From assembly GCF_000469385.1 (NCBI RefSeq), contig NZ_KI271345.1:1-39132 (forward strand): a stretch of 39,132 bases of DNA, in the 5' to 3' direction. This DNA comes from Leptotrichia sp. oral taxon 879 str. F0557 (GTDB lineage: Bacteria > Fusobacteriota > Fusobacteriia > Fusobacteriales > Leptotrichiaceae). The notes below the pieces were generated by a model, which was not told the DNA's origin, made no database searches, and saw only the letters and a program-made list of their open reading frames with translations. Below, piece by piece: positions 409 to 11,827 of the stretch. Both the position numbers and the translations under genes were made by a program. How positions within the stretch are numbered: the stretch's first letter is position 1; each line of letters begins with the position of its first letter.

Positions 409-3400
409 TTATTTATTCTTTTCTAAATCTTGAATATCTATTTTTTCCTTAATCCCTTCCTTTTTTTTCATCCCTTCTTCTATCAATTTATTAACCTCGC
501 TTAATCTTTTAATTTTTTCTAATAATAAATCTGCTTTTTCAAAAGGCTTATTAACTTCTTCTTTCGCATTGGAAAATTCTTCCCTGTAATTTTCAAGTCT
601 TACCTTCTCTTTTTCCAGATTTTCAGGAATTTTATCTAACAAATTATCCATTCTCGTTATATTCCCAATTGAATCTTTCCCAAAATCAGTATAATATTTT
701 TCTTTGTTTTCCAGTACACATTTATATTTTTTCTCATAGAAGTCAAAATTTGAAGACAGTTTAAATCCTCTATAATTTCCAATAATTTGAGGCTCATCAG
801 ATATTCCAGTACCCTTTATAGCTTTTAAAAGCTCTTCTCCAGCTTCTTTTTTATCATAAATTTTGGTTCCGTTAATTTCAATAGATGTAAATTTATCCTC
901 ATTATTTGATTTTGGCTCTATTTTAGAAACATCTTCCTTCACATTTTCAATATATTTTTCCATTTTACTAATTTTTACAGGATATTCCTTTGTTATTTTA
1001 TCCTCAAGACGATATAAGTTTGACTTGTAATTGGCTTCAAGCATTCTTAACTTATTTACTTCCATATCCAAATCCATTTTTTCCTTAATTAAAGGATTTC
1101 CTGTTGCGAGTGCCTTTATTTCAGCATAGTTTAAAGAGCTTTCATCAACATCTTCTGCTACTCTGACTGGGGTTTTGGAAGTCATAATTTGGCTTATAAA
1201 CTTTTGTTTATTCTCGATAGTTTGCCACAAATAAGCGTCAAATGTATTCTCAGTAACATATCTGTAAATTTCCACTTTCTTATTTTCATTCCCTTGCCTG
1301 ACTATCCTTCCTGCCCGTTGTTCCAAATCCGAAGGACGCCACGGCACATCTAAGTCGTGAAGTGCAATTAATTTTGTTTGTACATTTGTTCCTGCTCCCA
1401 TTTTTTGTGTTGAACCTAGCAATATTCTTACATCTCCTGTTCTTACTTTTGCAAAAAGTTCGTCCTTCTGTTTTTCAGAATTTGCATTATGAATAAATGC
1501 TATTTCTTCTTCAAGAATACCTTTATTAATCAACTTTTCCTTTAAATCTTCATAAATATTGAAACTTCCATCATTTTTGGGAGTAGACATATCAGAAAAT
1601 ACAAGCTGTGCGGATTTTTTTTCAATGCTTTCTTTCCATATATTGTAGATATTTTCTACACAGGCATTTACTTTACTGTTTTCATCATCGGGAAGCATTT
1701 CATTTACAAGCCTCTGATCTAGTGCAAGTTTTTTACCATCATTTGTAATTTTTAACATATTGTCTTCTGTTGGCTCTACATTTCTGTTTCTTACTTCTTC
1801 TGCTCTTTCTGAAAGGCTTTCTAATATTAATTTCTGTTCCTCTGTCGGTTTAGTCAATACTTTTTTGTACTCTACTTCAGGTGTTGGTAAATTTAACATA
1901 TCAGCAGTCTGTATATCTGCAAATTGTTTAACATTGTTCATAAGTTCAGGAAGATTGTAGAATTTTGCAAATCTTGTTTTAGTTCTATAGCCATTTCCTT
2001 CAGGAGATAATTCAATAGCTGTAACTGTTTCCCCAAATGTGCTTGCCCAAGAATCAAAATTTTGATGTCCTTGTTTTTTAAGTTCATCATACTGTAAATA
2101 TCTTTGCATTGTATAAAGTTCTGACATAGTGTTGGAAACTGGTGTACCTGTCGCAAATACAACTCCTTTTCCACCTGTTATCTCATCCATATATCTACAT
2201 TTCATAAACATATCCGATGATTTTAATGCTTCAGTTTGTCCTATTCCTGCCACATTTTTCATTTTAGTGTATAAAAATAAATTTTTAAATGAATGTGCCT
2301 CATCTACATACAGCTTATCAACTCCTAATTCTTCAAATGTAACGACATTATCCTTTTTAAAATCATCATTTAATTTTTTTAGCCTTACTTCTAGTTTCTT
2401 TTTTGTACCTTCAAGTTGCTTTACAGTGAAATTCTGGTTATTTTCCTGCTTTAATTTTTGGATATTTTGTATAATTTCATCAATTTCATTTTGTATATGT
2501 TTTTGCTGGTAATCCTTGCTCATTGGTATTTTCTCGAACTGAGAATGTCCTATTATTACAGCGTCGTATTCTCCAGTTGCAATTCTTCCAATAAATCTTT
2601 TTCTGTTTTTGGGTTCAAAATCCTTTTTAGTTGCTACAAGAATATTTGCTCCTTGATAAAGTTCCAAAAATTCCCTTCCTAGTTGTTCAGTCAAATGATT
2701 AGGAACTACAAACATTGATTTTGTTGCAAGTCCAAGTCTTTTTGACTCCATTGCAGAAGCAACCATTTCAAAAGTTTTTCCTGCTCCCACAACGTGTGCA
2801 AGCAGTGTATTTCCACCGTACAATGTTCTTGCAACTGCATTTAATTGATGTGGCCTTAATTTTATTTCAGGATTTATGCCATTAAAAGTAAGATGGCTTC
2901 CATCATATTCTCTTAGTCGAATTGAATTAAATTTTTCGTTATATATCTTAGTTAATTCATTTCTTCTTTCCAAATCCTTAAAAATCCAATCTTTAAAAGC
3001 CTGTTTAATAATATCCTGTTTTTGTCCTGCCAGCATAGTTTCCTTTTTATTTAAAATTGCTATTTTTTTACCTTCCGAATCTGTTTCATAGTCAAAAATT
3101 TTTGTATCTCTTAAATTTAGAGAATCTTCTATAAGTTTGTACACATTTACCCTTTCAGTTCCAAAAGTCATAACAGCAAGGGGATTATCATTATCCATAT
3201 TCTTATTTTCTATTCTCCATTCGGAAGTATATTCAGAGTAGTGAACTTTTATATATGAACTTTTGTATGCTGGTGTCTTTAATGTTTCCACAATAAAATC
3301 CTTTATATGATTTTTAGGAACCCAAGTTGCTCCAATTCTGACATTTATCTCGCTTGCTTCAAGTGGCTTAGGCATTACTTCCTGCAATTTTTCTTTTTGA

Positions 3401-6400
3401 AAATTTAGTATTTCAGGACTTATTCCATTTTTCTCTTCATCAGAAAGAGAATTAAATTTGTCAATATATTCTATTTTTTCTCTTATATTCCCACTTAAAT
3501 ATTCATCCTGTGTTACATATTGAAATTTTTGTGGAAAATCTTGATTTATATTAAGAAATATTTCCCCTTTTAGACTGTCAATTAAATCATCTTTTTTCAT
3601 TCCAGTAAGATTTGTCATATATTCAAAATCCACTTTTGCTTTTTGAGAAATTGAAAGAATTAAGGCTTCTTGCGGTGTGTCTACTCTATCTATAACTTTT
3701 GATTGTTTTATCGTTCTTTTAGAAAAAATATCCCCTTTTTTCTTAAAGTTTCCACGTTCATCAAATATCTCTATTGAAGATAATAAAGAATAATTGGAAT
3801 CTTCAGTAAATAATCTCGAATTTGCTCTTGAATTTAAATATCCATACTTATTAATAAATCCATCATATATTCTATTTAGTTTTTCCTGCTCAATTTTTAA
3901 TCTATCATCTGTTTCACTGTCTTTTTGAATCTGAATAACTTTTCTTAATGAAGATGTAAGTTCTATATATTTTGATATTTTATCCTTATCTCTATCTGAT
4001 AAATCTTGTAATATCATTTCACTATTTTCTTTAAAATAAATATCGTTATCTTTTTTGAAGAATGAAAAATTTCTTATTTCATAGTCTTCATTTTCAACAC
4101 TAATTACAGTTTCTTTTTCCTCAGCGAGAGTTTTTTCATAACTTCCTTCTATATTCCCAACTGCTTGTTCTAATTCATCCTTTAAATTACTATTTTCTTT
4201 TGGCATACAAGTTAATGTTCTCCCAAAACGTCCACTAACTTCCTCCATTTTCCCCAAAACCATATTAGGATTATCCACAAAATACTGATTATATACAAAT
4301 TCTTCAGAATCAGATTTAACCGCATACCAGTCCTGCTCCTCTTTATTTATATTTTCCCTTTTCTTTAAAAATATAATATCCGATATCACTTCAGTTCCAG
4401 CAACGCCTTTAAATGTATCATTTGGAAGCCTTATTGCTCCTAATAATTCCGCTCTTTCTCCAATGTATCTTCTCACACTGTCATCCTTTTTATCAAATGT
4501 CCCAGAAGAAGTTATGAAAGCCATAATTCCGCCTTTTTTTACCTTATCTAATGATTTTGCAATAAAGTAGTCGTGTATCATAAAGTTCTGCTTTTCATAT
4601 TCTCTGTCCATTACCTTAAAATCTCCAAACGGAACATTTCCTATTACAACATCAAATGAATTGTTAGAAAATTCTGTTTTTTCAAATCCTTTTACTTGAA
4701 TATTACTTTCAGGATAAAGTTTTTTAGCAATATTTCCGCTGATACTGTCTAGTTCCACACCATATATCTTGGAGTTTTCTAATTCATCAGGCAGATTACC
4801 TATAAAGTTTCCCACACCACAACTTGGCTCTAAAATATTTCCGCCTTCAAATCCAAGTTGCTGTATTCCTTTATAAATGGAATCAATTACTATTTTAGGT
4901 GTATAAAAGGCTGTCAATGTACTTGCCTTAGCATTATCATATTCTTCCTGCGTCAAATTTTCTTTTAAAAAATTTCTTGCTTCTTCCCATTGTCCACCTT
5001 TATTTTCATCAAATACATCAGCCAGTCCTCCCCATCCAACATATTTAGAAAGTGTTATCTTTTCATCATCTGCAGCTTCTCTTTCCTTCAAATTTTTTAA
5101 AACTTTTATAGCTTCGATATTATTGTTTAGACGCTCTGATGGTAACAGTTTTTCAGACTGAATTTCTTCAGTAATTTTAAAATTTTTAGAAATATTATCT
5201 TTACTATTTTCTTCATCTATATAAGGATATATTATTTCATCATTCTCAATAATATTTTCTGTTTCCTTTTCAGGAATAAAATATTGATTTTCATCTATAA
5301 GTTCCTGTATTCTTTTTTCAATTTTGTCCCAAGACAGAACTATCTTAACTTCATTATTACTAAAATGGTTTTTATATAACTTCATGTTTTTAGAAGTATA
5401 AAAGGCATCATCTATAAAATCTCCACGGTCAGGTATTGAAAAACCGCCTGTTCCGTATTCCCATTTCAAATATTTTATTCTGTCTTCCTTTGAACTATTA
5501 TCTTGAAAAAAATTATAGATGGATTCTACTCCACTGTATGATTTTAATACATCATCAATATTCTTTTGAGTAATTATATTATCATTTTCTATTTGTAAAT
5601 TATCTGATTGTAAGTTATTTCCCTGAGAGAAGAGAGTAGGCTGTTCATAAGCCTTACCCATTCCATTTGATCCTTTTCTTTTAATTCTTCGGTTAATCCC
5701 ATAGTTTTCATCATTTTGGGTTTTTCTATCTCCCAAAATTTCTCCACTTCTGTCTGAATTGAAAATAGATGTTCCATAACTTCTCCCTTCATTAGAAGAT
5801 TTTTCAAAAATTCCACTTTCTCTTGTTCCAGATATTTCATTCTCGCTCGTCCCCAAGAGTTGAGTTTGCTCAAGTCTATTTCTTCTTCCTCTAAATCCGG
5901 AACTAGCACTTGAAACTTCTTGTCCATTAGTATCATTTTGTAAGTTCCTCTCGCCTGCTCGTAGGATGTTTCCTTCACTACTGGAGTATATATCCCGTTC
6001 TCTATCAGATATTCTTTCCCGTCTATCATCTTTTTCAGCATATTCCAATTCCTCCTCATTTTTTTCATTTTCTATCTCATATCCAATTTTACTATTTTGT
6101 TCTAAAGTTGTTTCATCATTTATTTTCTGAATTTCCTTACTTACTTTGATTAGAACTTTTTTTGCCACATTGGATATTTCTGATGATATTAGTTCCATAG
6201 TTCTAAAGTCTGAGAATAAAGAATAAATTTTCTTTTCCTTTTCATTAAATATATCCTTTTTCTTAATTCCCATTCTTTGATCAAGTGCAATCAGAACAGA
6301 TTTTTTTATAAAACTTTCAAGAACTTCTGTATCTTTGTAATTGAAAGTATCTAATTTGCTGTTTTCAAGCATTGTCTGGCTTATAAGCACCATCTGTGCT

Positions 6401-6795
6401 TCTTCAAAATCTGATTTTCCTGTCATTCTTTCAAAAACATCTTTATGAGTTCTATTATTAAATTCCCATAATTTAGGTTTTTCATCGTTACCTTTATCTA
6501 GGGACACTGTCTGTGTAACATCAAAAATATATCTGACATTCTTTTTTCCACTTCTTATATTATATACAGGTATTCCTTTCTGATTTCTTTCTACAACTCT
6601 GTTAAAATTTTCTTTCCAAAAGTCATATTCTGCACAGGCTACAGCTTCAGGACGAATAAAAAATATATTTAACTGATCCAATGCAGAATATTTATAATTG
6701 TTTCCTATGACATGAAGATAGTTAATATATTCACTAAAATCTTCATTTATCTTTTTATGTGCATTTTCCAATACAGTTTGAATCTTATACCCCAT
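409..6795 (-). CDS. Giant ArdC-like / N6-adenine methylase / SNF2-type helicase protein (2128 aa)
   Basis: This is a multidomain DNA-processing protein of the type found in ICEs, large plasmids and phages; phage P1 DarB has a related methylase-helicase plan. Residues about 35-80 look like the ArdC N-terminal ssDNA-binding domain. Residues about 250-400 are a low-complexity Ser/Gly/Asn/Arg-rich linker. The methylase part has a SAM-binding motif EPSCGVGNF (656-664) and a catalytic-type motif GNVPFGD (719-725; NVPF in place of the usual NPPY/F). The helicase part has Walker A GAGKT (1337-1341), DEAH (1498-1501), a TGTPVSN motif, and [10 protein letters not shown] (1826-1835). The start has a GGGGG ribosome binding site. 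It is the last gene of the minus-strand transfer region. The expected role is protecting or remodelling transferred DNA, but whether the methylase is active is unknown. A second gene lies in another frame inside the linker (5589-6041). Confidence 0.88.
5589..6041 (-). CDS. tnpV: TnpV-like protein encoded in an alternative frame inside the helicase gene
   Basis: This 150-residue frame lies wholly within the giant helicase gene, on the same strand but in a different frame. It is no ordinary shadow frame. It has AGGAGG (6051-6056) nine bases before its ATG, and the product resembles TnpV proteins of Firmicutes transposons and ICEs. The matching features are a Tyr-rich N-terminus with a PDLEEEEID stretch, then [13 protein letters not shown] (63-75), [14 protein letters not shown], and a C-terminus with [20 protein letters not shown] (114-133) followed by [11 protein letters not shown]. 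The matching part of the helicase (residues about 252-402) is disordered and poor in hydrophobic residues, as expected where a folded protein is overprinted. TnpV function is poorly known. A longer frame begins at 6068, but the ribosome binding site favours 6041. Family recognition is from memory. Confidence 0.72.
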
Positions 6796-6839: not shown

Positions 6840-8912
6840 TCATTTTTCTATTTTTATAAAATCCTTTCTTTGCAAGTTCAAATAATCTCCATTTATCTCT
6901 ATTCCAAAATGTGCATTATATTCCTTTCCACTTTTACTTTTTATCTTAAACACAACCTGTTTCCCTCTTAATAATTTTTTTGCATTATCCTTACTTATCT
7001 TTATTTTTTGTCCAAAATAACTTGCTTCTTTCCAAAGAGATGTTTTACATCCCTTCTTATAATTACTGCAATAGTAACTTTTACTGTTCTCATAAACATT
7101 ACTGTTACATTTAGGACATTTTCCAATAACCTCCATTTCTTTTTCAAATTTTTCAACTTCTATATCTTGATTTATTATATTTTGTAACTCACTTTTAGTT
7201 TTTTCAATAATATCACTTATATTTTTTCTGTTATTATAAATATCTTTCTGAAGCATAGAAAACTCAACAGTCTTTTCTGCATAAAGATTAATATGGAGCA
7301 AATCCAGCAGTTCGATTAACTTTATCCCTTTTTCAGTTATACTAAAATTTTGTTTTTCGGAAGTAATATATCTATATTTCTTAGCTTTCTCAATTATTCC
7401 TGTTCTAGTCGCCTCTGTACCAATCTCTACTCCTTTCATTATTTCTCTATATTCCTGTGTATCGTCCTCATTTTCCTGATTTTTTTCTTTTCTAAAAGGA
7501 TTTTTTAAATAATTACTCAAATTTTCCTCAGTAACTTTTTTAGGAGGAATGGTTAATTTATCAGCAACTTTAAAATCAACATCAATTTCCTGATTAATTT
7601 CAAAATATGGCAACTTGTTATCTATCTTCTGATTTTCATATTTTAAAAATCCTTCCTGCTTTACTGATTTTCCCTTCAAGTTAAAGATTTCATTTCCCAC
7701 AGCAATCTTTATTTCAGTTTGATTAATTATCGCTTGCTCCTTCAAAAAGTTAGAAATAAATCTATTTCTTATTGTTTCAAAAATTATCTTTTCTTCTAAA
7801 TCCAAACTATTCATATCAGGAACTTTCAAAGTTGGCATTACTGCACTATGGCTCTCAATCTTGCTACTGTCAAATATTTTTTTGCTGTCCTTAAACACCA
7901 GTTCATAATCACTATATAATTTTATAAGTTCTCTTACCTTGTCTTTTTCCTCTTCAGCAAGATATTCTGTATTTGTTCTAGGATATGTAATAAATCCCTT
8001 TTCATAGAGATTTTGTATAATTTCAAGAGATTTTGCAAAACTTATTTTATTTTCCTTCGATAATTTACTTTGTAATTTTGAAAGTGAAAAAAGTTTTGGA
8101 GGATTAAGAATAATTTCCTTTTCAGTTATATCTTTTACAATCCCTTTATTTCTATTTAACTCATACGAATAACTTTTAGCTTTTTCAAGTTCTAAAAGAT
8201 TGTATTTTTTATCACAAATAAGTTTTAACAAAGTTCCATTACACATAGTTTCACTCTCAATAGTAAAATATTTTTCAGGAATGAAATTTTTAATTGCCAA
8301 ATCTTTATCATAAATATGTTTTATAACTGGAATAAGAACACGTCCGACTGGAAAAAGCGTGTTAGCCTTTAACGAAATATATCTTGTAAGATTGATTCCC
8401 ATAAGCCAGTCCATATATGTCCTTGCAAGCCCCTCATTATGTAAATTTTTATATTTAGAATTATCTTCAAGATTATTTATGGCTTTTCTTATGGTTTCTT
8501 CAGTCTGTTCAGGAAGCCACAATCTTTTTATCTTCTTATCAGTTTTTATGGCATTGATAATAATATCCACTATAATTTGCCCTTCCCTGTCTGCATCTCC
8601 CGCATTTACTATCTCATCAACTTCATTGCTGTTAATAAGATTATTTAATATCTTATACTGTTTCTTTATTCCCAAATCATTTTTTAAGTCAAATTCAAAT
8701 TTTTCAGGAAAAAATGGCAGTTTAACTTCACTCCATTTCCTCTTTTCTCCAACATATCCATCAACATCCCTTAATTTAAACAAATGTCCAAAAGCCCAAG
8801 AAATAATATACTTTCCATTTTCCATATACCCCTCTTTATTAACCTTGACATTCAATGCACTTGCAATATTACGTGCAAGACTCGGCTTTTCTGCTATTAT
8901 TAATTTTTTCAT
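6840..8912 (-). CDS. topB: DNA topoisomerase III (type IA)
   Basis: This enzyme relaxes or decatenates DNA by cutting one strand. Conjugative elements often carry such a copy. The 690-residue protein starts with the TOPRIM strand MKKLIIAEKPSLARNIASAL and has the metal-binding GDADREG motif (105-111; D106, D108, E110). The catalytic tyrosine is Y310 in FITYPRT. LARTYMDWLMGINLTR (162-177) and FPVGRVLIPVI (187-197) match the conserved core, although GRVLIP differs from the usual GRVQTP. A C-terminal zinc ribbon has C599, C602, C615 and C622. The length is normal for TopB. AAGGGGG precedes the ATG. It lies 44 bp upstream of the helicase gene, probably in the same transcript, and likely resolves intermediates during transfer or replication. 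Confidence 0.95.
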   Translation of the reverse strand: MKKLIIAEKPSLARNIASALNVKVNKEGYMENGKYIISWAFGHLFKLRDVDGYVGEKRKWSEVKLPFFPEKFEFDLKNDLGIKKQYKILNNLINSNEVDEIVNAGDADREGQIIVDIIINAIKTDKKIKRLWLPEQTEETIRKAINNLEDNSKYKNLHNEGLARTYMDWLMGINLTRYISLKANTLFPVGRVLIPVIKHIYDKDLAIKNFIPEKYFTIESETMCNGTLLKLICDKKYNLLELEKAKSYSYELNRNKGIVKDITEKEIILNPPKLFSLSKLQSKLSKENKISFAKSLEIIQNLYEKGFITYPRTNTEYLAEEEKDKVRELIKLYSDYELVFKDSKKIFDSSKIESHSAVMPTLKVPDMNSLDLEEKIIFETIRNRFISNFLKEQAIINQTEIKIAVGNEIFNLKGKSVKQEGFLKYENQKIDNKLPYFEINQEIDVDFKVADKLTIPPKKVTEENLSNYLKNPFRKEKNQENEDDTQEYREIMKGVEIGTEATRTGIIEKAKKYRYITSEKQNFSITEKGIKLIELLDLLHINLYAEKTVEFSMLQKDIYNNRKNISDIIEKTKSELQNIINQDIEVEKFEKEMEVIGKCPKCNSNVYENSKSYYCSNYKKGCKTSLWKEASYFGQKIKISKDNAKKLLRGKQVVFKIKSKSGKEYNAHFGIEINGDYLNLQRKDFIKIEK

Positions 8913-10033: not shown

Positions 10034-10741
10034 TTACAAGTTTATTATTTTATTATATTTCTGAATTACTTTTGGTATATATTCCCTTGTTTCCTTTATC
10101 CCTTTCCAAGCGTTATTTGCTAATCTTCCACAGCCAGCGTTATAGCAGACCAGCATTTTTGAAACACTCCCAGTTTTTTCATAATCTCTTTTTAAATGCA
10201 ACACACCTCCCTTTATATTTCCTGATATGCTGTTATCCACTCCAAATTCCTTAAAATTAAAAGGCATTAACTGCATAAGCCCTCTTGCTCCAGCACTTGA
10301 TACTGTTGAATGATTAAAATGGCTTTCAGTATTCATAACTGCTAAAACTAAATATGGATTAAAGTTATACTCTTTGCTGTATTTAAAAACATAGCCAAGT
10401 ATATTTTGTATTTCATTTTCATTCAGCTTGCTGTTCTGTGTTTTAATATATTCAATAAGTTTTCTGTTTCCAATATTTTTTTGAATACGAGAAGTATTAT
10501 TAACTTTTTTTACAGACTTATTATCATAAAATAATCTATTGCTTTGTGATTGGATATTGCTTGTATCTTCTTTAGGCGAATCGTTTAATTCTTTATTTTT
10601 GTCAGCCTCATTATCCTTTTGTGTTTTTAATTTCTCAATTCTTTCCTGCTCAACTTTTTCTTTCTGTTTCTGAAAGTTTATCTCTCCCCCAGAAAAGGAA
10701 ATTTTTGAAACTATCATAAGAAACAATATACATTTTTTCAT
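10034..10741 (-). CDS. virB1: VirB1-like lytic transglycosylase
   Basis: This predicted SLT-type lytic transglycosylase cuts glycan strands so that the secretion channel can assemble. MKKCILFLMIVSKISFS is a signal peptide. Residues about 25-90 are a charged, low-complexity linker. Residues about 95-235 are the catalytic domain, with E139 in MNTESHF as the expected catalytic acid, then SAGARGLMQLMP (149-160) and CYNAG (199-203), all classic SLT motifs. The mature N-terminus GGEINFQKQ is shared with the downstream NlpC/P60 enzyme. AAGGAG precedes the ATG by ten bases. It lies 18 bp after a DUF4116-containing gene in the transfer operon. Confidence 0.92.
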   Translation of the reverse strand: MKKCILFLMIVSKISFSGGEINFQKQKEKVEQERIEKLKTQKDNEADKNKELNDSPKEDTSNIQSQSNRLFYDNKSVKKVNNTSRIQKNIGNRKLIEYIKTQNSKLNENEIQNILGYVFKYSKEYNFNPYLVLAVMNTESHFNHSTVSSAGARGLMQLMPFNFKEFGVDNSISGNIKGGVLHLKRDYEKTGSVSKMLVCYNAGCGRLANNAWKGIKETREYIPKVIQKYNKIINL

Positions 10742-10759
10742 TTATAACCATCTCCTTTG

Positions 10760-11827
10760 CTATCTTTCAATTTCAATGTCCTTGCTTTTTATTTTCGGAT
10801 TTGTATAATTTATCTTTATTTCCTCATAATCACTCTTTCTATCCAAATCAGTATCTTTTAAATAAGGATTTGTTCCATACACAAATTTTTCTTCCCTATC
10901 TGTCAGCCCATCAAAATCACTGTCCTTGTATTTTTCCTTAATTTCCTCTATTTCCTGTTTAATATTTTCATCTCCATAACTTAGAGCGTCTTCATTTCTT
11001 TTTAAAACTTCCGTTACGACATCTTCATCCTTTTGCATTTCAGAACTTGCATATTGATAGGAATTAGGGTAGTTTTTTACAGATTCCATCACTATTTCCT
11101 TATCATTTTTTAATTCCTCGCTTGCAAATTGTAAAGCACGTCCATCCTGTTTCACTGCTTCCAAAACTAAATCCCTGTTATTCTTAAGCCGTTCACTTGC
11201 ATATTCAAGATTTTTTCCATTTTCTTTGACTTTTTTCATAACATATTTCTCATCATCTCTTATTTTCTCAGAAGAATAATATTTAAATATATTTTTACCT
11301 GCATATATTGAGGCTTCATACCATTTTTCCATTTTATCAGCCTTATTTCTAAGCTCACTCATTTTGCTTTCCTCAATATATTTTTCCAATTTTTCATTAG
11401 TAATGGATCTTATTTCCTTTTTATCCTTTAACATTAAGTATTCTCGAAGATACTCGTTATTTTTATCTTTTTCAAGCATATTTCTAATTTTTTCCATTGT
11501 TTTGCTGTCATATCCACTTTTTACATACAGCTCAACATCCTCTTCAGATAATCCTTTTTCAAATCCTTTCCTAATTTCCTTCATCTGATTTACATCCAGC
11601 TTTTTCATCACAAGTTTTTCCCATTTGCTGTCATCCAAGCTATTTTCAGCTCTTTTTTGTAATATTTCCTCATTAAGCACGGGTGTTACACATAATTTAA
11701 ACTGTTCAAGAGTCAAATTTGATTTTATCATTTTCTTTATTTCCTGTTTTTCATCTTTAGAAAATTTTACTCCTATCCTTTTTAAATAGTCTTTTTTCTC
11801 ATTTTTTTGAAATACACTCAGCAACAT
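10760..11827 (-). CDS. DUF4116-repeat protein with calcium-binding-like C-terminal motif
   Basis: No function is known for this 355-residue protein. Residues 1-165 are charged and helical. Residues about 190-285 hold at least three consecutive units of about 25 residues built as [ND]xExVxExVKxxxxxLxYASExLK, the pattern of DUF4116 repeats. Residues about 302-315 read DSDFDGLTDREEKF, and 325-335 read DTDLDRKSDYE. These are thrombospondin-type-3 or dockerin-like DxDxDGxxDxxE calcium loops, the second one degenerate. No signal peptide is visible (it starts MLLSVFQKNEKK), which is odd for such loops. AAAGGGG lies seven bases before the ATG. It lies between a coiled-coil gene and the VirB1-like gene. 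Confidence 0.78.
   Translation of the reverse strand: MLLSVFQKNEKKDYLKRIGVKFSKDEKQEIKKMIKSNLTLEQFKLCVTPVLNEEILQKRAENSLDDSKWEKLVMKKLDVNQMKEIRKGFEKGLSEEDVELYVKSGYDSKTMEKIRNMLEKDKNNEYLREYLMLKDKKEIRSITNEKLEKYIEESKMSELRNKADKMEKWYEASIYAGKNIFKYYSSEKIRDDEKYVMKKVKENGKNLEYASERLKNNRDLVLEAVKQDGRALQFASEELKNDKEIVMESVKNYPNSYQYASSEMQKDEDVVTEVLKRNEDALSYGDENIKQEIEEIKEKYKDSDFDGLTDREEKFVYGTNPYLKDTDLDRKSDYEEIKINYTNPKIKSKDIEIER

Follow-up and report, generated by a model that had tools for sequence, protein, structure and literature searches.

The window, that is, the whole stretch of 39,132 nucleotides analysed here, is an entire contig of Leptotrichia sp. oral taxon 879 str. F0557, and it carries a conjugation module on the minus strand between positions 6840 and 37000. 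Among the ten module proteins that were scanned are TrbL, CagE/TrbE/VirB, the T4SS coupling protein, TrbI, and a MobA/MobL relaxase; a topoisomerase, a lytic transglycosylase, and a ParA-type ATPase are also found in this module. On the same strand, positions 409 to 6795 hold an open reading frame (ORF) for a protein of 2128 amino acids, here called the host, which Pfam and PHROG identify as a polyvalent protein (the PHROG label is DarB-like antirestriction, with 1547.6 bits). A methylase and an SNF2-type helicase stand in one chain, the combination by which polyvalent anti-restriction proteins are recognized, and the order of the parts is an ArdC-like N-terminal domain, a polar linker, an Eco57I/N6-type methylase, and the SNF2-type helicase.

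The N-terminal domain (residues 1 to 230; 6106 to 6795, minus strand) has no match in Pfam, ArdC-N included, and was assigned as ArdC-like by fold comparison. AlphaFold modelled it with a pLDDT of 86.5, and Foldseek placed the ArdC structures 6i89 and 6sna at ranks 1 and 2 (probability of 1.00, E values of 0.0054 and 0.011), with a TM score of about 0.45 against ArdC of plasmid R388. Further along the minus strand there follow the linker that, in translation, lies over the tnpV codons (about residues 252 to 401; 5593 to 6042), the Eco57I-type methylase domain (residues 674 to 784; 4444 to 4776; PF07669, E value of 1.6e-9), the N-terminal lobe of the helicase (ResIII, residues 1311 to 1505; 2281 to 2865; PF04851, E value of 6.7e-5), and Helicase_C (residues 1731 to 1835; 1291 to 1605; PF00271, E value of 5.6e-9). 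LPD11/LPD25, DUF3849, or YodL was found in the hosts of three relatives. Passages of Iyer et al. 2017 (PMC5512222) present ArdC-N as a domain thought to bind and protect single-stranded DNA on entry and the methylase-SNF2 dyad as one thought to modify the injected DNA.

Within the host gene, in the +1 frame, lies the nested tnpV (5589 to 6041, minus strand), with 150 codons and a stop, the ATG at 6041 to 6039, and the end of the stop codon at 5589; an alternative in-frame ATG further upstream would give 159 codons. Across the whole overlap the host frame contains no stop. A preliminary description, made from the sequence letters, had reported a TnpV-like frame of 150 codons inside a 6.4-kb gene of the same strand read in another frame, and an AGGAGG site nine bases ahead of its ATG. 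The ORF was confirmed on the minus strand in the +1 frame, the putative internal ribosome-binding site is present at 6051 to 6056 (minus strand) with the 9-base spacing, and the proposed identity was borne out by Pfam, in which PF14198 matches the 150-codon product with an E value of 2e-20 and 73.3 bits, where the gathering score is 27, over profile positions 8 to 111 of 111. The nested tnpV is the sole TnpV match in this genome assembly, and the NCBIfam scan of its product gave no match.

The AlphaFold model of the window TnpV has a mean pLDDT of 92.3, which like the Pfam match is more than a chance frame would give, and presents strands first and then helices. Foldseek returned no match to it, such as to a solved Xis-type excisionase, under an E value of 0.6 in the PDB and BFVD, and comparison with structures by VIA gave Z scores of at most 4.6, in regions of long helices and within the noise of the tool, as is the match to a serine integrase chain (Z of 4.1). 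The PDB sequence search revealed no relative (the best E value, 0.07, was to a designed protein), and none was recognized by the protein’s own peptides among 17 pattern matches in viral contigs. By Pfam, the window TnpV belongs to the same family as the TnpV of Tn4451 and the free-standing PF14198 proteins, and a nested clostridial TnpV reaches 150.5 bits with this profile. The free-standing proteins sit in a space of their own, for example, directly after a recombinase gene, whereas the TnpV of the window is wholly intragenic. As stated in a passage of PMC3158075, a role of the Tn4451 TnpV in excision was postulated from its homology with lambda Xis.

Occurrence of nested tnpV genes in near and distant relatives

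Homologues of the helicase were found in 12 of 60 relatives, the window’s own genome counted, and 7 of 18 chosen genomes gave a TnpV match, that of G025 being below the curated cut-off. The seven TnpVs of the aligned relatives (G001, G006, G010, G011 twice, G008, and G055) all lie behind the host N-terminal domain in the +1 frame, and in G008, the second copy of G011, and G055 the N-terminal part of the host is just 33 to 37% identical to that of the window. Four genomes have a helicase match and no TnpV match: in G038 the helicase match starts at residue 463, in G057 it is a short helicase stretch, and G039 and G024 contain remnants of the N-terminal domain with stops. Two loci deserve a separate mention. 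The host ORF on contig 1 of G055 (about 2202006 to 2212397) reaches 4007 codons, with several hundred additional residues ahead of the ArdC-like domain. The copy on contig 1 of G025 (727470 to 737894) is decaying, with several stops in the helicase and a TnpV of 18.6 bits; despite this decay, neither the TnpV-like frame nor the overlying host frame is interrupted.

To cover more distant elements, TnpV loci were gathered from viral contigs (19), genome contigs (the best 80 of 543), and plasmid or phage records (nine), and a long ORF encloses the TnpV in 71 of these 108 loci but not in the other 37, the genome-contig part being biased toward nested-like TnpVs. Because of this bias the search was reversed, with the host N-terminal domain as the query; the model of the domain (alignment A4) was made from TnpV-bearing hosts, so that hosts diverged too far from them would escape detection. 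In the examined loci, which are partly redundant, 146 of the 148 ORFs with the host domain have a TnpV directly behind it, all 146 in the +1 frame. The other two are an interrupted ORF of G039 and a 299-aa ArdC-like protein (L193).

The same arrangement, with TnpV directly behind a near-full-length host domain and in the +1 frame, was observed, with domain hits taken at E values below 1e-30, for all 25 such domains of seven genomes, for 13 of 14 in a family sample of 100 genomes, and for 19 of 19 in 299 genomes sampled from the phylum to which G060 belongs, an Oscillospiraceae bacterium whose own domains, already counted, were excluded from the last two samples. Pooled, 57 of 58 near-full-length domains precede a TnpV, always in the same phase, and the sole miss, on contig 37 of G146, is a split gene whose domain end and TnpV are on contig 84. 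One of the 19 TnpVs of the phylum sample (G191, 25.5 bits) is under the Pfam cut-off. The counts omit, as partial or split, G090 and G194, each of them followed by a TnpV, short ArdC-like matches of other proteins, and G310, where a partial host-domain match of 38.8 bits has no TnpV. In these samples the gap between domain and TnpV ranges from -1 to 227 bases; the nested overlaps measure about 345 to 450 bases, and the host-domain matches are mostly part of one open frame of about 2000 to 3300 codons. The seven genomes contain 50 near-full-length TnpVs, 25 of them nested and 25 not behind a host domain (that of G062 contig 65 included), and six further TnpV rows that are partial. None of the TnpVs with an internal stop (G061 contig 247, G094, G096, G148, and G158) is behind a counted host domain.

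The tblastn search with the window helicase matched 1908 plasmid records, and 17 were picked from this search, from a spread listing, and from the host-domain search (the pieces L237 to L239 were not counted). All 11 plasmid helicases with the host domain contain a TnpV-like +1 frame beneath a stop-free host frame: those of Cohnella, Ruminococcus albus 7, two Subdoligranulum, Streptococcus suis, Virgibacillus, Listeria monocytogenes, Streptococcus agalactiae, Anaerococcus, Aerococcus, and Enterococcus hirae, where the matches of Listeria and E. hirae cover only about the first 100 positions of the domain model. Pfam was run on ten of them (Aerococcus excepted), and eight are above the TnpV cut-off, with Anaerococcus (24.9 bits) and S. 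agalactiae (16.7 bits) below. In contrast, none of the six helicases without the host domain (Vallitalea, Burkholderia, Campylobacter jejuni, Rhizobium, a Streptococcus, and Vagococcus) has a nested TnpV. Thus, TnpV follows the ArdC-like domain. An un-nested TnpV can still neighbour a helicase gene, as in the plasmid of Vagococcus carniphilus, where a free-standing annotated TnpV (10525 to 10926; 26.6 bits, barely below the cut-off) lies 0.75 kb downstream of the helicase on the same strand.

These counts, from the 148 ORFs, the phylum sample, and the plasmid helicases alike, bear out the idea put forward in the preliminary description that the overprinting is conserved in homologous helicases. 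The result named there as refuting, a homologue that retains the linker while its tnpV frame is broken, did not occur among the hosts examined, and the pieces of host domain that lack TnpV are the remnants of G039 and G024, the split gene of G146, and the weak partial match of G310. The further suggestion that overprinting explains the long linkers of these helicases holds for the polar part that follows the ArdC-like domain but does not extend to every long helicase linker, since TnpV tracks that domain and not the helicase core.

Constraint and translation signals in the two frames

In a gap-free alignment of the window with four close relatives, the sites that vary at the first, second, and third host codon position number 22, 9, and 77 (of 254 each) upstream of the overlap, 25, 27, and 7 (of 150 each) inside it, and 38, 15, and 103 (of 300 each) downstream. 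The same picture is given by 30 disjoint pairs, in which divergence at the three positions is 8.6, 6.5, and 22.6% upstream, 12.3, 6.1, and 4.3% in the overlap, and 9.4, 6.8, and 22.4% downstream. At the TnpV stop codon the frames switch, with divergence at host position 3 passing from 0.029 to 0.152 (24 pairs). We then expressed the changes as rate ratios per frame, an idea after OLGenie as presented in part of PMC7531306, although the figures are not OLGenie output. Over the 30 disjoint pairs, changes that are silent in the host and alter TnpV proceed at 0.148 of the silent rate of the flanks (bootstrap range, 0.104 to 0.188), as against 0.64 (0.53 to 0.74) for changes that are silent in TnpV and alter the host; the three pairs from the window’s own group give 0.063 and 0.275, respectively, each over a broad range. 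It follows that TnpV is the constrained frame, as had been presumed. The opposite reading, of a conserved helicase linker over a TnpV frame that is open by accident, was rejected on these per-frame rates, and with host position 3 almost frozen in the overlap and a Pfam match far above the cut-off we give it practically no credence.

The amino acids of the host in the overlap appear, at most, weakly constrained: the rate of changes that alter both proteins is 1.25 times that of changes silent in the host and altering TnpV, which amounts to no host constraint, and the ratio of TnpV-silent, host-changing substitutions to those silent in both frames is 0.78 (30 disjoint pairs). For this reason, the case for read-through of the host rests on the avoidance of stops and on the conserved domains on either side. 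We classified 144 distinct TnpVs of at least 85 amino acids as nested when a host domain stands before them in the appropriate frame and as free-standing otherwise (eight of the 152 distinct matched stretches, being under 85 amino acids, were uncounted), and the host frame is free of stops in all 98 nested TnpVs, whereas the equivalent frame of all 46 free-standing ones contains 1 to 10. When tnpV was shuffled synonymously, the host frame stayed open in a median of 3% and a mean of 14% of trials (33 clusters). Moreover, in the 33 nested clusters hydrophobic residues make up 12% of the host linker over tnpV, compared with 34% of the preceding domain and with 22% of the same frame beneath 35 free-standing TnpVs. 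The helicase frame, earlier called low-complexity, is therefore better described as polar and poor in hydrophobic residues, and what is kept in it over tnpV is, as judged from the sequences, its openness and its polarity.

This weak constraint on the host residues is what one would expect if the region held three ordinary genes, for an ArdC-like protein, TnpV, and a methylase-helicase, with a boundary that is stop-free by chance and no read-through of the host. Against such an arrangement stand the stop-free host frames of the nested TnpVs, which have no counterpart among the free-standing ones, and the location of most host-domain matches in one very long frame, so that we regard it as very improbable.

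At least 5 bases of AAGGAGGT are found 4 to 12 bases before the chosen start in 32 of the 33 nested clusters, compared with 99 of 2453 other +1-frame ATGs of the same hosts. As the starts had been chosen partly by the ribosome-binding site, the count was repeated by taking as the start the first ATG that each open frame contains, a rule blind to the site, and 20 of the 33 clusters still have one. The position, the phase, and the internal ribosome-binding site of tnpV are conserved features. Reading back from the ATG in the tnpV frame, a stop is reached one codon away in 4 of the 33 clusters and within 15 codons in 21. Programmed frameshifting that joins the ArdC-like domain to TnpV, with no internal initiation, would suit the adjacency of the frames and the position of TnpV directly behind the domain, but a fusion of this kind is impossible in the four clusters with the nearest stop, and the ribosome-binding site ahead of the start also argues against it; we consider it very unlikely.

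As a side observation on the region ahead of the start, over about 30 host codons before the tnpV ATG (about 6042 to 6131 in the window) divergence at host position 3 is already 0.05 to 0.08, compared with 0.13 to 0.23 further upstream (24 pairs). The reduced silent divergence possibly marks a regulatory or RNA element ahead of the internal start.

Taken together, the nested TnpV frame presents the traits by which overlapping genes are recognized, namely, purifying selection, a translation signal of its own, and a host frame that is open in homologues. The region is thus very probably dual-coding, and one mRNA of the conjugative element would give both the polyvalent protein and TnpV, their joint translation being a deduction from the DNA. 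The polyvalent protein, with its ArdC-like front and its methylase-helicase rear, would be translated straight across tnpV, and TnpV, a small folded protein, would be initiated in the +1 frame from a Shine-Dalgarno sequence of its own inside the host gene. The stretch of the host over tnpV would be a mere spacer that must remain open and polar, with its letters set by tnpV. We propose that the nesting couples the two genes, so that neither would be lost alone and both would come from a single transcript. Tentatively, TnpV could cooperate with the polyvalent protein in the protection and establishment of transferred DNA in the cell, or in its excision.

Origin, annotation, and relation to known systems

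The distances among TnpVs and those among the host domains are correlated (r of 0.85 for 32 clusters, and 0.73 for 29 after removal of the window’s relatives), which indicates that the two have for the most part moved as a pair. In the tree of TnpVs, built from 99 rows and 117 columns and with the nested and free-standing labels fixed beforehand, the nested state requires five changes. Midpoint-rooted parsimony counts 5 changes from a nested ancestor and 6 from a free-standing one, with 5 escapes as against 8 nestings, and the AU test on the same rows and columns, picked after viewing the tree, speaks weakly against a single free-standing clade (p of 0.035). The tree leans slightly, as far as these sequences go, to escape from a nested ancestor. 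TnpV might in that case have been born by overprinting in an ArdC-like/methylase-helicase gene and have escaped several times to a free-standing life, the TnpV of Tn4451 included, an origin that we hold to be possible but rather doubtful. If it were true, a whole Pfam family of transposon proteins would have started out as a second frame in a bacterial gene whose two frames both continue to be read.

It is also possible to hypothesize an ancient capture, in which a free-standing tnpV was trapped behind an ArdC-like domain, for instance, from a mobilizable element inserting into snf2 genes, where the host frame happened to stay open, and the arrangement was then fixed. Such a capture, which concerns the origin only and is compatible with dual coding, is a substantial possibility, if short of a probable one. 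Free-standing TnpVs are common, making up half of those in the seven genomes, and a part of PMC9815147 describes TnpV-carrying elements that insert into snf2 genes in Streptococcus suis, which leaves room for an event of this kind. In searches with other queries, no independent relative of the host stretch over tnpV came to light. Parsimony slightly prefers the nested ancestor instead, and the stops that all 46 free-standing TnpVs hold in the equivalent frame must have been missing from any captured copy.

None of the ten annotated records of the nested pair lists tnpV together with a host gene spanning it: six list the host only (R. albus, S. suis, Virgibacillus, Listeria, Anaerococcus, and E. 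hirae), one lists TnpV and no host (Cohnella), one lists TnpV and a host truncated to begin behind it (Monoglobus), and two list neither (S. agalactiae and Aerococcus). The PLSDB gene table is incomplete and omits pseudogenes, so that a missing row is no proof of absence from the original record. The expectation that standard annotation would drop tnpV was right for the host-only records, whereas in others it is the host that is lost, so that either member of the pair can disappear. On the Cohnella herbarum plasmid, where the host gene is absent from the table, an antisense hypothetical protein is listed over the ArdC-like domain (8280 to 8843). Among the open-licence papers searched no report of TnpV nesting was found, nor is it mentioned in the passages where PMC9815147, PMC11913394, and PMC10782964 treat TnpV. 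According to parts of PMC7103648, PMC9927249, and PMC8227390, overlapping genes are usually omitted from annotation.

The nested pair reveals a gene class lost by annotation and offers a natural system for the evolution of two proteins on one stretch of DNA. Furthermore, it explains the source of the polar stretch behind the ArdC-like domain and links TnpV to an anti-restriction protein of conjugative elements.

With the polyvalent proteins of conjugative elements described in parts of Iyer et al. 2017 (PMC5512222) the host shares the methylase-SWI2/SNF2 combination and, as judged by fold comparison, the ArdC-like front; different from the nested pair reported here, neither TnpV nor the word “overlapping” occurs in the main text of that paper. 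In bacteria, long overlaps between genes of the same direction have been put down to errors of annotation, and in the relevant passages of Palleja et al. 2008 (PMC2478687), which covered 338 genomes and 968 overlaps of more than 60 bases, none that is co-directional or divergent was judged to be real. The overlaps accepted there are co-directional and conserved, as is the one considered here, but extend over at most 56 bases, whereas the pair of the window shares 450 bases and is completely nested. If both frames are translated, nested tnpV would be a clear exception to that survey. In the overlapping genes of E. coli O157:H7 and in viral overprinting, as these are outlined in the portions of the literature drawn on here, two proteins likewise come from one stretch; the E. 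coli O157:H7 cases are antisense, whereas nested tnpV is on the same strand, encodes a known protein family, and is common to very diverged elements.
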